A stretch of 30,421 nt of DNA from the IMG/VR virus record IMGVR_UViG_3300034520_000364, positions 1 through 30,421 of that record. One strand, written 5' to 3'. Source of the stretch: a virus. A program made the position numbers and the translations under genes. This document shows positions 12,143-30,421 of this stretch, piece after piece (within the stretch, counting starts at the first letter, position 1; the number at the start of each line of letters is the position of its first letter). Under the pieces are notes generated by a model. That model did not search any database. It had not been told where the DNA came from and saw only the letters and a program-made list of their open reading frames with translations.

Positions 12143-12376
12143 ATGAAGAGAGTAGAATTGTTAGACATGTTAAGAGAAGTAAATGGATTAATTGACATTT
12201 TGGATCCTATTTCAATTGTTTTTGAGGAGTGGGCTATAACTTTGCATTGTAAGGCTTTAGATGATAAGGAAAATTTTTTATTGGATGAGGGTTTTGAAAT
12301 GAGGGAAACAATTTGTGGAACAAAAATTTTTGAAAAAGATTTAATTACAATAAGTTTAGAGGAGGGTGAGCTATGA
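12143..12376 (+). CDS. small early protein of unknown function
   Basis: A 77-residue acidic protein. I choose the ATG at 12143, eight bases after GGAGG, over the GTG at 12110 that lies inside the previous gene. It ends in overlap (ATGA) with the zinc-domain gene, so the two are coupled. Sequence is amphipathic with two cysteines and no known motif. Confidence 0.6.
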   Translation: MKRVELLDMLREVNGLIDILDPISIVFEEWAITLHCKALDDKENFLLDEGFEMRETICGTKIFEKDLITISLEEGEL

Positions 12377-12603
12377 AGTTAGTTCAATGCTATGAATGTA
12401 ATGGCAAGGGCATCATTGAATATGCCTGCTTTGATTGCTGTGGAAGCGGGCTTGCAATAATCAGTGGTGATCTTGTGAAATGCCCAACCTGCAAAGGTAG
12501 AGGATACAGCCCTTATCACTATGAAGTTTGCCCTCTCTGTGAAGGAGAGGGAGTAATAGAAGAAAAAAATGAGGGGGTGTGCTATGAGATTTCAATTGCC
12601 TAA
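12373..12603 (+). CDS. stand-alone DnaJ-type zinc domain protein
   Basis: A 76-residue protein made almost entirely of the DnaJ central zinc domain. Four CxxCxGxG motifs are present: CYECNGKG (6-13), CFDCCGSG (19-26), CPTCKGRG (37-44) and CPLCEGEG (53-60). In DnaJ, repeats 1+4 and 2+3 bind two zinc ions. There is no J domain or C-terminal substrate domain, so it cannot activate DnaK on its own. Possible roles are a small chaperone adaptor, a zinc-dependent protein-binding module, or a competitor of host DnaJ. It overlaps genes on both sides in the early operon. The fold is certain; the role is unknown. Confidence 0.85.
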   Translation: MKLVQCYECNGKGIIEYACFDCCGSGLAIISGDLVKCPTCKGRGYSPYHYEVCPLCEGEGVIEEKNEGVCYEISIA

Positions 12604-12788: not shown

Positions 12789-13556
12789 ATGGAAAAAGAA
12801 AAAGCATTGCAACCAAACAATGGAGAGGAAAGGCAGGAGTTTGAAAGAGTTTTGACAGAATATCTCAAAATCGTAGGGCAGAAAGTCTCTCAAGAAAATG
12901 TAATTCAATTTCTGAACATTGCCAAGGCTTATCAGTTAAATCCTTTCAAAAGAGAAATTTATCTTATTCCATACGGCAATCAGGCAAATATTATCGTCGG
13001 TTATGAAGTCTATCTTAAAAGGGCTGACCGCTCAGGTAAGCTTGCAGGCTGGCGGGTATGGACTGAAGGGTCAATAGAAAAAGGGGACTTAAAAGCCATT
13101 ATTGAAATAAAAAGAAAAGACTGGGAGGAACCTTTCAGGCACGAAGTGTTTTTCAAGGAATACTACAGAAAAACACCCATCTGGGAAGAAAAACCTATCA
13201 CTATGATTAAGAAAGTTGCTATCGCTCAAGGGTTCAGACTTGCTTTTCCTGAAGAGCTTGCAGGAATGCCCTATACCGCAGAAGAGATTGAAGTTGAATA
13301 TTACGAAGTTCCTAAAGAGCAAAAACAATCACATGAAAAGCCTCAAGCCCTTCCTGAAGCACCAAAATGGGATATAGAGCGTATCAAACAGGTAGCTACA
13401 GAAGAACTTAAAGAAGCTATAAGACAATACGGAGCAACTTCCAAAATATTAGTGGAACTTTTCAATGAATTTGACGGAGACCAGGTAGCAGTAATCAATA
13501 AGCTCAAAGAAATGGCAGAAGAAAGAAAAAAAGCTAAGGAGGGAGCCAATGCTTAG
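12789..13556 (+). CDS. bet: RecT/Bet-family single-strand annealing protein
   Basis: A 255-residue recombinase mediator. The N-terminal 170 residues carry the lambda Bet (RecT) core: a helix EFERVLTEYLKIVG, then LNIAKAYQLNPFKREIYLIPY (family hallmark 'A..Y.LNP..REIY'), then a G-Y-EVY-LKRADRSGKLAGWRVW segment and a C-terminal IKKVAIAQGFRLAFPEEL helix. The last 80 residues are charged and probably flexible, as in other Bet proteins where they bind partners. It anneals single strands exposed by the nuclease encoded next. The two genes overlap by eight bases. The SD is AAAGGAGGG. Confidence 0.92.
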   Translation: MEKEKALQPNNGEERQEFERVLTEYLKIVGQKVSQENVIQFLNIAKAYQLNPFKREIYLIPYGNQANIIVGYEVYLKRADRSGKLAGWRVWTEGSIEKGDLKAIIEIKRKDWEEPFRHEVFFKEYYRKTPIWEEKPITMIKKVAIAQGFRLAFPEELAGMPYTAEEIEVEYYEVPKEQKQSHEKPQALPEAPKWDIERIKQVATEELKEAIRQYGATSKILVELFNEFDGDQVAVINKLKEMAEERKKAKEGANA

Positions 13557-14355
13557 TTATACAAGGATTAGCACATATCAAAAGTGCCCAAAGCTTTTTG
13601 AATATAAATATGTCCAGGGGCGGCTCCCCGCCCCTACAGAAAAAATGCTTGAGGGATTGGAGGAGCATTTGAAAATAGCAAGTGTAGAAGATGTTCCTGA
13701 ATTTTTCCGCTCTGCTTTTATGCGAAACTTCCCCAATCCTGTTTTTGAAGAAAGATTAAGCTTTGATTTTTTGACTTTCACTTTACAAGGGGTAATTGAT
13801 TGCTACTCAGTGAATGATGTCTTTTGTTCTATCGCAGACTGGAAGCTCTTTCAAATTCCTGAAAGCGATGACCAGCTTAAAATTTACGCTTTGCTTTTAT
13901 CTAAGAAGTATACTCAACTCACTTTCTTTCAAGCCTACTTCGTAAGCCTCAAAGGAGAGTTTTTCAAGCGTTTTACATACAGCATTGAGGACATCCAGGA
14001 TTTTGAAAAACAGCTCTTTGATGTTGCAGATGAAATTCAGACTGCTAAAGAGTTTCTCCCCCGCCCAGGACAGCATTGTGGTTTTTGTGCTTTTATAAAA
14101 GATTGTTACGCTGAAAATCAGATTCAGGCTGAAATAGTAAAAATTACAACCCTTGATGAGGCTATAGAGATATCAAAGAAGCTTTACATCGCTGAAAATT
14201 TTCTAAAGCAAGTAAAAGAACAGCTCAAAGAGTTTCTCCTTGAGCAAGGCTTGGATGAACTTGTTTTTGATGAAGAGAACAGAGTCTATTTATCTCCTTC
14301 AATAGCCTTGCGTTTTGGCAAAGCAAACGGAAAAACCAAAACAAAAAAGAGGTAA
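13549..14355 (+). CDS. Cas4/RecB-like PD-(D/E)XK exonuclease with Fe-S motif
   Basis: A 268-residue nuclease, the partner of the annealing protein. The N-terminus is LSYTRISTYQKCP. The catalytic core has Asp84 (GVID), Asp97-x-Lys99 (IADWK) and the Gln109-x3-Tyr113 (DQLKIY) motif of the RecB family. Cys13, Cys177, Cys180 and Cys186 form the 1+3 cysteine pattern that binds a 4Fe-4S cluster in Cas4, AddB and related proteins. It probably makes 3' single strands for recombination. Asp replaces the usual Glu in the ExK motif, which is common in this family. A strong GC-rich hairpin lies in its first 90 bases. Confidence 0.85.
   Translation: MLSYTRISTYQKCPKLFEYKYVQGRLPAPTEKMLEGLEEHLKIASVEDVPEFFRSAFMRNFPNPVFEERLSFDFLTFTLQGVIDCYSVNDVFCSIADWKLFQIPESDDQLKIYALLLSKKYTQLTFFQAYFVSLKGEFFKRFTYSIEDIQDFEKQLFDVADEIQTAKEFLPRPGQHCGFCAFIKDCYAENQIQAEIVKITTLDEAIEISKKLYIAENFLKQVKEQLKEFLLEQGLDELVFDEENRVYLSPSIALRFGKANGKTKTKKR
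13616..13635. other. GC-rich perfect hairpin inside the nuclease gene
   Basis: AGGGGCGG (13616-13623) pairs with CCGCCCCT (13628-13635) around CTCC, near the 5' end of the nuclease coding region. It encodes part of the QGRLPAPT segment, which is in a normal place for the family, so it is not an obvious insertion. It could slow translation or fold the mRNA. Confidence 0.6.
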
Positions 14356-14362
14356 AATAGCT

Positions 14363-14683
14363 ATGATGACAAATGATGATTTTAACAAGTATATGATGGA
14401 GAGGTTTGAAGAAATTCTTCGTTTAAGAGAAGAAAAGGCAAAGGAATACTCTATCTTTTACGCCTTTGAGCATTTCATGACCGCTTCAAATTTCCTTCTT
14501 TCTCCGAAAGAAGCTGTGGCTTTCTATTACATGACCAAACACATAGTTTCTCTCAGGGATGCCGTTCTCTCTGGCAATGGAAGGAAAAAGATTAAGGAAA
14601 TAGTGAACGATCTGATAATTTATGCTCTTTTGATTGAGGCCATGATTAATGAGGAAGAATTAAAAAAAGGAGGTGGGAAGTGA
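14363..14683 (+). CDS. helical phage protein, DUF1599-like pattern
   Basis: A 106-residue protein started at the ATG at 14363, after AGAGGT, instead of the frame open from 14315 inside the nuclease gene. It is helical, with a central stretch (LSPKEAVAFYYMTKHIVSLRDAV) followed by a 'KI.EIVNDLIIYALLIEAM' helix. This looks like phage helical proteins of the DUF1599 type, which are associated with nucleotide modification, but the match is weak and made by eye. It lies between nuclease and SSB in the replication block. Function is left open. Confidence 0.55.
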   Translation: MMTNDDFNKYMMERFEEILRLREEKAKEYSIFYAFEHFMTASNFLLSPKEAVAFYYMTKHIVSLRDAVLSGNGRKKIKEIVNDLIIYALLIEAMINEEELKKGGGK

Positions 14684-14840
14684 AAGTGACAGGGTAGAAA
14701 AGATTTAATATAGGTTTGATAAAGAAACTTCTTTTGTGTTTTGTCAAGAAAAGGCTTCTAAGTGTTATGAAGTTATAGGAAACATATATGAAAATCCTGA
14801 ATTATTACAAGAAATAAAAAAGGAGGCAACAAATGATTAA
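14673..14840 (+). pseudogene. probable broken small gene with in-frame TAA
   Basis: A frame opening at GTG 14673, after AAAAGGAG, reads MGSESDRVEKI, then TAA (14706-14708), then 43 further codons to TAA at 14838. The post-stop part (YRFDKETSFVFCQEKASKCY, then EVIGNIYENPELLQEIKKE) has ordinary protein composition, with phage-like codon use, and ends by overlapping the SSB start. I read it as one small gene interrupted by a stop. It could instead be a short ORF from an internal GTG, or noncoding. Confidence 0.4.
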
Positions 14841-15216
14841 CAAAGTGATTCTTATCGGAAGACTTGGGAGCAATCCAGAAATGAAAGTTTATGAAGGCGG
14901 CAAAAAAATAGCTTGGATGAATCTTGCAACAAATAAACGCTATGTCCAAAACAACCAAAAACAGGAGAAAACAAGCTGGCATAGGCTTATATGTTACGGC
15001 CTTCTTGCAGATTTTGTTTATGAAACCCTTACTAAAGGCAAGCTCATTTATGTAGAAGGAAGGCTTGATTACTGGGGAAAGGAAAAAAGCCCTGTCATCA
15101 TAGTTGAAACTTTGAAAATCTTAAGCCCTAAGAAAACACTCTCTGGAAAAGAAGAAGAACTAAAAAAGTTTGAAAGCTTAGAAGAAGACATTCCTTTAGA
15201 AGAAATACCATTTTAA
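14833..15216 (+). CDS. ssb: single-stranded DNA-binding protein
   Basis: A 127-residue SSB with the OB-fold core: INKVILIGRLGSNPEMK at the N-terminus (family opening), W at position 35 (KIAWMNLATNKR), then TSWHRLICYGLLADF near 54-70 and KGKLIYVEGRLDYWG near 78-92. The C-terminus is acidic (ESLEEDIPLEEIPF) and ends in Pro-Phe, as in bacterial SSBs, where the tip recruits repair and replication partners. A strong AAAGGAGG precedes the ATG. It protects single strands during origin opening and Bet-mediated recombination. Confidence 0.95.
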   Translation: MINKVILIGRLGSNPEMKVYEGGKKIAWMNLATNKRYVQNNQKQEKTSWHRLICYGLLADFVYETLTKGKLIYVEGRLDYWGKEKSPVIIVETLKILSPKKTLSGKEEELKKFESLEEDIPLEEIPF

Positions 15217-15412: not shown

Positions 15413-16285
15413 ATGCAAACTAAAAAAGACATTAGAACTTTAAAAGACGGAAATTGGGCTTGGTTCAATAAGCAAATCTTCGAAGACCCAAGATTAAGAC
15501 CAATTGAAAAATTGGTATACCTCGGGCTCACATATTTTGTAAATAACGAAACCCAAGCTTGCTTCCCGTCCATTGCAAAATTAAAGGAAATAACAGGATT
15601 AGGTAGACGGTCAATAATTAAAGCTCTACATCGATTAGAAGAACTTGGATATATCCATATTGAAAGAAACTCCGGTGGAAGCTCAACCTATTACCTTTTA
15701 AATACGAACCAAAATGTAAAAGATGATCCAGTTGAACCAGTGCACGACATGCACCAGTGCACAGGATGCACCAGTGCACAGGATGCACCAGTGCACCAGG
15801 TGCACAGGGGTGGTGCACCAGGTGCACAGGGTGGTGCACCAGGTGCACAGGGGTGGTGCACCACGTGCACATATAACAATAATTATTTAACAAGATTCAA
15901 TAACAATACTTATTTAACAAAAAATAAGCGATCGAATTTTGAAAAGTTGAATTTTGAAGATAAAAACTTTTTAGAAAAAACTTCCTTAAAAGAAAACCTT
16001 GATGCCCCTATAATTAATAATGCCCCTACCAATAATAATTGCCACTTAGAAAACGATTTTGCTATGAATGGCAACGACCCTCTTGTAGAGGGTGGGGCAA
16101 CATTATGTAAAATTGGAATGGGTCTTGAACCTGTTAGCAATATCCTTAATCTTTTATTATCACCTAAAGAAAAAAACCTCTTAGAAAAAGCTGAAAAATA
16201 TAAAGTTGAAAATATAGAAGAAAGATTAAAAATGTTAAATGAACAAGCTGAAAAATTGTGTAAAATTGGGAATAATGGAATATAA
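15413..16285 (+). CDS. winged-helix replication initiator (lambda O-like plan)
   Basis: A 290-residue protein, started at the ATG at 15413 after AAAGGAG; a longer frame from 15386 has no better signal. Residues about 10-100 form a winged-helix DNA-binding domain: W-F.KQIFEDPRLRPIEKLVYLGLTYF, then CFPSIAKLKEITGLGRRSIIKALHRLEELGYI. This is the HTH_36 type seen in phage replication initiators. The middle (about 105-155) is low-complexity and encoded by the GTGCAC repeat array; the C-terminal 100 residues are charged helices, perhaps for helicase or host recruitment. No helicase-loader gene is seen. Gene plan, with origin repeats inside the gene, parallels lambda O. Role is well supported by architecture, not by homology search. 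Confidence 0.78.
   Translation: MQTKKDIRTLKDGNWAWFNKQIFEDPRLRPIEKLVYLGLTYFVNNETQACFPSIAKLKEITGLGRRSIIKALHRLEELGYIHIERNSGGSSTYYLLNTNQNVKDDPVEPVHDMHQCTGCTSAQDAPVHQVHRGGAPGAQGGAPGAQGWCTTCTYNNNYLTRFNNNTYLTKNKRSNFEKLNFEDKNFLEKTSLKENLDAPIINNAPTNNNCHLENDFAMNGNDPLVEGGATLCKIGMGLEPVSNILNLLLSPKEKNLLEKAEKYKVENIEERLKMLNEQAEKLCKIGNNGI
15740..15920. other. putative replication origin: iteron array plus AT-rich unwinding element
   Basis: GTGCAC occurs 11 times from 15740 to 15870, starting at 15740, 15757, 15774, 15791, 15800, 15813, 15822, 15834, 15843, 15856 and 15865. The first part repeats the 17-mer ATGCACCAGTGCACAGG (15749-15765, 15766-15782). The second part repeats paired GTGCACCAGGTGCACAGGG units with a 21-22 base period. 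Because 17 and 22 are not multiples of three, the translated peptides differ between units, pointing to selection on DNA. An AT-rich tract follows, with TTATTTAACAA at 15883-15893 and 15910-15920. Iterons plus AT-rich tract inside an initiator gene is the lambda origin plan. Confidence 0.75.
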
Positions 16286-16471: not shown

Positions 16472-17745
16472 ATGGGGCGAGAGATTCCAATTAAATGTGA
16501 GGGCAATCGATATTTAAGCTATGATGAGCTTAAAGATTTTCAAGGGAACTTAAAAAAGCTTACAAAAGAAAACCTTGAAAAGCTAAAAAAGTCGATAATT
16601 CAATTCGGGTGGGTGGCTCCTGTTTTTGTTTGGAACGGCAATTATATCATAGATGGGCATGGGAGGCTAAAGGCTTTGCGTGAGTTAATTAAAGAGGGCT
16701 ATACGATCGGCAAGATCCCCGTGGTGGATATTTATGCTGAGACGAAGGAAGAAGCAGGCAGGATTTTGCTGGCTATTAATTCGCATTATCAGCAGATAAC
16801 AGAGGAAGGCATACAAGAATTTATTTCAAACTTCAGCATAAACATTGAGGAGCTCAACGATTTTGTATTGACTGATATCGATTTAGAAGGGTTTTTAAAA
16901 GAGGCAACTAAAAAAGAGGAAGACGAGGCTGAGGATGAAGATGAAGTCCCAGAAGTTAACGAAGAGCCTATTACGAAATTAGGGGATCTTTATATTCTTG
17001 GTGGCAAGCACAGAGTTTTATGCGGGGACGCTACTATAAGAGAAAATGTTGAACTGCTTATGGATGGTAAAAAAGCGGATATGGTTTTTACGGATCCACC
17101 GTATGGCATGAATTTAAATACGAATTTTAAGAGATTAAGCACGGCTAAATCATGGAGAAAAGGCAAACATTATAGACCAGTTATTGGCGATGATAGAAAA
17201 TATGACCCTTCGCATTTATTTAGAGACTTCGGGTATGTAAAAGAGATGTTTTTATGGGGGCAGATTATTATGCGGAGCTCATTCCGAACAGGGATAAAGG
17301 TTCATGGATAGTATGGGATAAAAGGGCAGGAATAGAGGATGCATTTTTTATGACATCTGAATTTGAGCTGTGCTGGTCAAAACAAAAACATCACAGGAGG
17401 ATCGCACGATTTGCATGGTTTGGAGCATATGGGATGCAGTTTGAAGAACGAGAAGAGAAGAAAGGCGGGGGATTTAAAAGAGTGCATCCGAACCAAAAGC
17501 CTGTTCGACTAATAAAGTGGTTCTTTGAGCAATGGGGTAAAAGCGGGGATATAGTAGTTGACCTTTTCTTAGGTTCTGGCTCAACCATTATAGCTTGTGA
17601 CAAGATGGGTAGGGTTTGTTACGGTATGGAGATAGATCCTTTATATTGCGATATTATTATAGAAAGATGGTGTAGATATACAGGGCAGAGGGATATAATT
17701 AAAAACGGCGAGCCAATTAAATGGGGAATAAAGAATGGCAAGTAA
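16472..17745 (+). CDS. ParB-domain DNA methyltransferase (N4/N6, beta class), frames joined by -1 shift
   Basis: Two frames, 16472-17311 and 17254-17745, make one 424-residue protein if the frame shifts by -1 at G5 (17256-17260). The N-terminal 120 residues are ParB-like (a YIIDGHGRLKAL motif near 50-60). The methyltransferase has DPPY at about 208-211 in the first frame and the SAM-binding FLGSGS motif in the second, the beta-class order. The junction restores FLWG-ADYYAEL, the natural sequence of the family, so the shift is real in the DNA. It may be a programmed slip, with the Gly codon GGG re-pairing one base back, or an inactivating one-base deletion. It could protect phage DNA from host restriction. 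SD is GGGGGAG. Confidence 0.72.
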
Positions 17746-29790: not shown

Positions 29791-30421
29791 ATGGCATATT
29801 CAGGCAAGATAACTATATCAGGGCAACAGAATAATTTTGTCAGTGCTTTTTCAGAATTCATAAGATACATTTGCGGAGACCCTTCAATTCCAGGAAGAGA
29901 TTGGCAAATTATTTTTACTGAGCTTGATGATTCACCAAATAATTTTCAATACATTTCCTATTCAGGGACTCTAAATGTAAATGCGAACAATGCATGGATA
30001 AATCTTCCTACTGCATTTGTGACAGAATATACTTTTACAAGAGGAGGAACAAACTTAATTGAAAATACAGATTACGAGCTTGATTGGAAGTTGGGAAGAA
30101 TAAAATTCTTAACAGGGACACCACCTTATGATGTTGATTATTCCTATAAGTTTAAAAGATTTAGGGTTGTAGTGAAAAACACAGGGTTGAGTGGGACAGA
30201 AAATATCTATGCAGGATTTTTGATGGTATCTTCTGGATATGACAAAGCAAATATTTTAGTTAGATGTTATCGAGGGTATGAAGCTGGAGTAACCTTTTTT
30301 GATACAGCTTTCGGTAATCCTATCAATTTACATCCTATGTTTGGTTTCTGGACTGGGACTATTGATATGTGGATTTTTTCAAACAAGCAAAGAATTATTC
30401 TGGTAGCAAGAAACAATATCT
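29791..30421 (+). CDS. tail tip/baseplate structural protein, 5' part (continues at base 1)
   Basis: ATG 29791 lies just after the tape measure stop. The first 168 residues (to 30294) join in frame to base 1 and end at 597, for 366 in all. The N-terminal part reads as a beta domain (GKITISGQQNNFVSAFSEFI, then GRDWQIIFTEL). The segment VVVKNTGLSGTENIYAGFLM near residues 128-147 is a motif I recall from distal virion proteins of other phages. It is not cut by a real gene end: the break is only the linear opening of the circle. Likely a tail-tip adsorption component; function not proved. Confidence 0.82.
   Translation, partial: MAYSGKITISGQQNNFVSAFSEFIRYICGDPSIPGRDWQIIFTELDDSPNNFQYISYSGTLNVNANNAWINLPTAFVTEYTFTRGGTNLIENTDYELDWKLGRIKFLTGTPPYDVDYSYKFKRFRVVVKNTGLSGTENIYAGFLMVSSGYDKANILVRCYRGYEAGVTFFDTAFGNPINLHPMFGFWTGTIDMWIFSNKQRIILVARNNI
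30295..30421. repeat. terminal direct repeat, right copy (circle overlap)
   Basis: Identical to bases 1-127. Counting it once gives a circular genome of 30,294 bp. The 127-base length matches a common largest assembler k-mer, which also suggests an assembly overlap; that tool link is inference. Confidence 0.93.

Follow-up and report, generated by a model that had tools for sequence, protein, structure and literature searches.

Phage λ carries its replication origin inside the gene of its own initiator, O, where the annotated iterons (TCCCTC-N5-GAGGGA) lie 20, 24, and 23 bp apart. O dimers fill these iterons, the DNA bends, and an A+T-rich tract opens (PMC5043065). The Stx phages P27 and 933W have six in-gene iterons, of which the four by the A+T-rich tract are bound strongly and the two distal ones are bound weakly yet are essential (PMC7466680). 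In phage SPP1, gp38 binds repeats within its own gene (oriL) beside an A+T-rich DUE (PMC6316719). Among plasmids, the Rep proteins of pSK41 and pPR9 use a winged-helix N-terminal domain to bind boxes inside rep, and their central linker is encoded by the origin (PMC5703833). This linker can be deleted in trans in pSK41, which has a RepA_N Rep, while in pPR9 the pfam13730 N-terminal domain has been exchanged together with the origin, and the mini-replicon replicates autonomously (PMC5703833).

Here, we analyzed a locus of this kind in the viral record IMGVR_UViG_3300034520_000364, positions 1 to 30,421 (the whole 30,421-bp stretch is called the window below). The ends of the window, 1–127 and 30295–30421, match each other over exactly 127 bp; the record therefore probably represents a complete circular map of ~30.3 kb. 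The genome is 36% G+C. Cumulative strand skew gave no replication-linked signal and is uninformative here because all window genes run in the same direction. Based on the features listed below, it is very likely that the locus is a λ-ori-like phage replication origin inside its own winged-helix initiator gene, where initiator dimers would bind iterons, melt the A+T-rich tract, and recruit the host helicase or primase.

12789–15216, + strand: RecT, PDDEXK exonuclease, and SSB genes, recombination and replication neighbors upstream of the initiator gene (domain and family matches).
15413–16285, + strand: initiator gene, 290 aa, with a winged-helix N-terminus, a linker encoded by the array and A+T tract, and a conserved C-terminal block (ORF, HTH_36, and phrogs).
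15491–15655, + strand: HTH_36 winged-helix domain, residues 27–81 (Pfam; AlphaFold2 model).
15605–15643, + strand: probable recognition helix, residues 65–77, RRSIIKALHRLEE (helix in the model; association tests).
15740–15754, no strand: iteron 1, GTGCACGACATGCAC (dyad scan, as for all iterons).
15757–15771, no strand: iteron 2, GTGCACAGGATGCAC.
15774–15788, no strand: iteron 3, GTGCACAGGATGCAC.
15791–15805, no strand: iteron 4, GTGCACCAGGTGCAC, which closes the 17-bp zone and opens the 21/22-bp zone.
15813–15827, no strand: iteron 5, GTGCACCAGGTGCAC.
15834–15848, no strand: iteron 6, GTGCACCAGGTGCAC.
15856–15870, no strand: iteron 7, GTGCACCACGTGCAC.
15871–15930, + strand: probable DNA-unwinding element (83% A+T, TAACAA repeats, A+T excess in relatives).
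16073–16285, + strand: conserved C-terminal block, candidate helicase or primase contact (near-identity with relative L006).

An earlier note on this DNA had counted eleven GTGCAC palindromes in 131 bp. The count holds, as all 11 copies in the window lie in 15740–15870, against a chance expectation of 2.5 for the whole window, and 0 of 100 shuffles reached 11. However, these hexamers are half-sites and resolve into seven exact 15-bp palindromes, GTGCA-N5-TGCAC, starting at 15740, 15757, 15774, 15791, 15813, 15834, and 15856. The binding unit is most likely this dyad, with half-sites 10 bp apart, rather than the hexamer that the note had taken as the unit. No copy of the dyad with 0 or 1 mismatch occurs elsewhere in the window. 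Successive dyads are 17, 17, 17, 22, 21, and 22 bp apart, and both periods described earlier, 17 bp and 21/22 bp, are real. First-zone sites hold one GTGCAC each because their right arm is ATGCAC; second-zone sites hold two. The array is itself 37% A+T and begins ~330 bp into the initiator gene, in linker-coding DNA after the winged-helix domain. Each site is a dyad, which weighs against direct-repeat iterons bound by monomers, as in Rep_3-type plasmids.

Directly 3′ of the array, the tract at 15871–15930 ranks in the top 0.2% of genome 60-mers for A+T. TAACAA recurs in it at 13–14 bp, and both copies of TTATTTAACAA that had been reported for an AT-rich tract after the array are present (15883–15893 and 15910–15920), as part of a 21-mer that recurs at a distance of 27 bp with 95% identity. 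Across 37 arrays, mean A+T content is 54% in the 60 bp 3′ of the array, which exceeds that of both the gene (43%, p = 3e-7) and the 5′ side (44%, p = 1e-5). The word [GT]AA[CT] occurs 111 times 3′ of the arrays, whereas shuffled sequences give 46 (maximum among 500 shuffles, 64). Its repeat distances peak at 12 bp, and the complementary words GGTTC and TTGAT were not enriched there. The 3′ repeats in relatives are possibly an initiator-specific unwinding motif. λ O binds single strands of its own A+T-rich tract (PMC7466680), and by analogy the initiator here may act on A+T-rich single strands as well. In L366, L352, L364, L009, and L264, GAACC, GAATC, TAAC, or AATACCC repeats stand ~11–13 bp apart after the iterons; these repeats are sometimes translated in all three frames (NRKEPSRTV-like peptides).

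The array was correctly placed by the note within the coding sequence of a winged-helix initiator. The 290-aa product matches PF13730 (HTH_36) with E = 1.6e-14 and 53.8 bits, against a cut-off of 25, and its only other Pfam match is a weak one to GntR; PF06970 (RepA_N) gave no match at E ≤ 0.01. It also matches phrog_270 and phrog_186 (replication initiation/DnaD-like loader). An AlphaFold2 model of residues 1–109 is a winged helix with a mean pLDDT of 82 and a helix at 65–77. Its PDB fold matches are modest, with none at E ≤ 0.001; the best neighbors are winged-helix regulators, TubR, and the initiator-titled entries 4pql, 4pt7, and 4pta. The best viral fold neighbors are phage HTH proteins. 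The C-terminal block has no family match and is a candidate for the helicase or primase contact.

The note had likened the locus to λ ori in gene O with a different site sequence. This stands for the layout, as in both cases the origin lies in the initiator gene and arm-N5-arm inverted-repeat iterons are followed 3′ by an A+T-rich tract. The word differs, the window has seven iterons where λ has four, and it has a 17-bp zone. The likeness does not extend to the protein, which by sequence belongs with the HTH_36 initiators: we rejected membership in PF04492 (Phage_rep_O), the only family that λ O matches, and the two proteins have no sequence similarity (profile comparison probability, 0.7%). 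No helicase or P-type loader was recognized among the annotated neighbors of the initiator, beside which small ORFs of unassigned function remain. Stx phages likewise have a λ-type O protein and word, unlike the window, but, compared by description, their strong and weak iterons are a possible parallel to the window's two zones. SPP1, also compared by description, has repeats described as direct, and its loader (gp39) and helicase (gp40) come from the phage itself. The plasmid pSK41 has a Rep whose C-terminal domain binds DnaG; pSK41 and pPR9 (the latter compared by description) are plasmids, whereas the window is a phage. The deletable linker of pSK41 and the arrival of the pPR9 domain with its origin fit a linker that exists for its DNA. 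Thermus phage Cumys (PQ109079) has a GTGCA-N5-TGCAC array of 7 scored sites in its initiator gene, which follows RecT and precedes a DNA methyltransferase, as in the window. However, the Cumys spacings are all 21–23 bp, the protein is distantly related, and the array is not annotated.

We then surveyed relatives. When viral contigs were scanned for GTGCAC triples, as the note had proposed for related initiator genes, 21 genes were found with an array following a related winged-helix domain. CACGTG triples were dropped as a neutral control (nine also fell within winged-helix initiators) and were replaced by shuffled linkers and unrelated ORFs. Further genes were gathered by winged-helix sequence alone, plus named phages and genomes, to guard against circularity. 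Removal of near-duplicates at 70% identity left 118 linkers, and for each of them the half-site and spacer that fitted best were sought de novo. Of these 118 non-redundant linkers, 62 reached a dyad-array score of at least 8; after shuffling, none of the 118 did so, and neither did most control ORFs taken from the same loci (9 of 125 reached it). Among the 93 genes not picked by array, for which several seed sequences of the winged-helix scans themselves derived from array scans, 45 scored at least 8, and four or more sites are present in 38. In these array-blind genes, 33 spacings are 15–18 bp and 97 are 21–24 bp, whereas 19 and 20 bp do not occur; a few are 13, 25, or 26 bp, and 24 are longer, mostly gaps across missed sites. 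The dyad search forbids spacings below 13 bp and otherwise favors no value. Of 73 ordered pairs, 65 have the short spacing ahead of the long one and 8 the reverse. The two-zone spacing noted in the window is present but not peculiar to this phage, as it recurs in unrelated relatives.

The short spacing equals the dyad length plus 2 bp, being 17 bp for N5 dyads and 18 bp for those with an N6 spacer. L362, L292, L381, L364, and L116 form an N6-dyad subclass with the 18-bp short spacing, several with RKT helices and GT[AC]CC words. The same layout occurs with different words in L341, L352, L355, L362, L364, L381, L382, L391, and phage Bcep176 (L370). Arrays in initiator genes were also seen in the named phages SfV (orf39; L366), Klebsiella RAH1 (L374), Bcep176, and Thermus Cumys (L367), and the records of these four have no origin annotation at the arrays.

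The recognized word appears to change with the recognition helix. Arginine at the position of R66, in the window initiator's helix, accompanies GCA half-sites in 26 of 38 genes versus 1 of 25 otherwise (all genes, p = 2e-7). When the association was repeated on genes not chosen by array, the counts were 12 of 23 versus 1 of 22 (p = 6e-4). Given the rest of the domain, site word and helix are still associated in a partial Mantel test, modestly but significantly (p = 0.0008 for all genes, 0.024 for array-blind genes), and RKT helices tend toward GT[AC]CC words and N6 (p = 0.0015). The clearest case of helix and word changing together is the pair L118 and L358. Their winged-helix domains are about two-thirds identical, their last six sites are spaced 17, 17, 23, 23, and 21 bp in both, and their A+T-rich tracts are almost the same, but the helix is SRRAV in one and GRTTV in the other, and the word at all sites is GTGCA in the former and GT[CA]CGG in the latter. 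These comparisons suggest that the same spacing rules are kept from relative to relative, whereas the word varies with the protein. We give about an even chance to the broader reading that HTH_36 initiators share one origin chassis, consisting of fixed N5 or N6 dyads, blocks at dyad length plus 2 bp and then at 21–24 bp, A+T-rich [GT]AA[CT] repeats ~12 bp apart, and a word retuned with the recognition helix.

Several other readings of the array were weighed. It is unlikely that the array is an in-gene operator through which the initiator represses or blocks its own transcription, with the origin elsewhere. Palindromic dimer sites for a winged-helix protein do resemble operators, and autoregulation could coexist with origin function. 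However, no clear promoter stands at the sites, which are ~330 bp into the gene, and seven sites with an A+T-rich 3′ tract and a shared repeat recur in relatives, like known in-gene origins. A role in partition, with the array as a centromere-like site of the kind used by the winged-helix proteins TubR and AspA, is less likely still. It would fit the TubR and AspA-type folds that the PDB comparison returned, and also the ParB-like/methyltransferase gene found downstream. However, no ParA, ParM, or TubZ was recognized among the proteins scanned, the family matches replication-initiation models, and relatives' initiator genes adjoin helicase or P genes.

Selection could also have acted on the encoded peptide, as a linker or low-complexity repeat, and some relatives with 21- or 24-bp spacing do stay in frame (e.g., L106, GAPDARG). 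The note had argued that the units are read differently and that DNA-site selection explains them better, and the frames bear this out. The window's seven sites occupy all three reading frames, and 47 of 54 arrays use two or three. L005 has an array identical to the window's, and L006, at 78% identity in the winged-helix alignment, is the only independent relative close enough for site-by-site comparison. This close homolog keeps the array as well as the gene, with seven dyads spaced 17, 17, 17, 22, 22, and 21 bp and a near-identical C-terminal block. Half-sites differ at 1 of 70 positions compared with 11 of 35 in the N5 spacers (Fisher p = 1.5e-5), and 6 of the 7 sites are translated in another frame; therefore, it is the DNA that is conserved and not the peptide, which leaves the peptide reading hardly credible. 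Equally improbable is a row of small hairpins in mRNA: GTGCA-N5-TGCAC could fold as a 5-bp stem with a 5-nt loop, but of the departures from the word across arrays, 173 break the pairing and 7 are compensated, so the word is kept rather than the pairing, and the word goes with the DNA-recognition helix. We give just as little credence to a restriction-modification cluster targeted by the N6/N4-type methyltransferase encoded downstream, as the conserved unit is the 15-bp dyad rather than the hexamer and relatives with the words GTACC, GTTC, and CCGCA keep the spacing layout. The peptide, hairpin, and restriction-modification readings were rejected.

For the in-gene origin, we infer binding, melting, helicase recruitment, and origin activity from the sequence as follows. 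Initiator dimers would bind the seven 15-bp iterons, each half-site taking one recognition helix, with the two helices of a dimer in successive major grooves that are 10 bp apart. Once filled, the array would bend or wrap the DNA and open the A+T tract at 15871–15930. The 21/22-bp zone beside this tract may form the unwinding complex, with the 17-bp zone auxiliary. The initiator, probably via its C-terminal part, would recruit the host replicative helicase or primase. Host recruitment is proposed because neither a helicase nor a loader of the phage was recognized. The same gap makes helicase entry the least certain of these steps. The window genes scanned, which took in some but not all of the small ORFs of this apparently complete genome, gave no recognizable helicase, helicase loader, or primase; in this the window is unlike SPP1, λ, and many relatives.

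By itself, the locus appears to belong to a kind already known from phage λ, and this assignment is well supported. The newer part would be the shared geometry and the helix-to-site relation across many words. A full-text literature search of incomplete coverage found no earlier description of GTGCAC arrays or of the spacing rule, which is weak evidence of novelty. An uncultured phage gains a candidate origin that is open to test, and origins could be sought in many phages as quantized dyads in the HTH_36 initiator linker. If the chassis reading is true, sequence alone could reveal where thousands of phage genomes have their origins and what their initiators recognize. The helix-word link opens initiator specificity, replicon compatibility, and origin exchange between phages and plasmids to direct test, and the recurring 17-then-22-bp layout poses the question of why two spacings are kept.

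Two further features of the neighborhood were observed. The gene at 12373–12603, adjoining the replication genes, encodes a 76-aa protein with DnaJ-type CXXCXGXG zinc-finger repeats, with PF00684 below cut-off and a match to phrog_127, a Q-like antiterminator (1.4e-6). Downstream of the initiator, the ParB-like/DNA methyltransferase gene (16472–17745) is split across two overlapping frames near 17254–17311, and L005 differs in length from the window where this gene is split.
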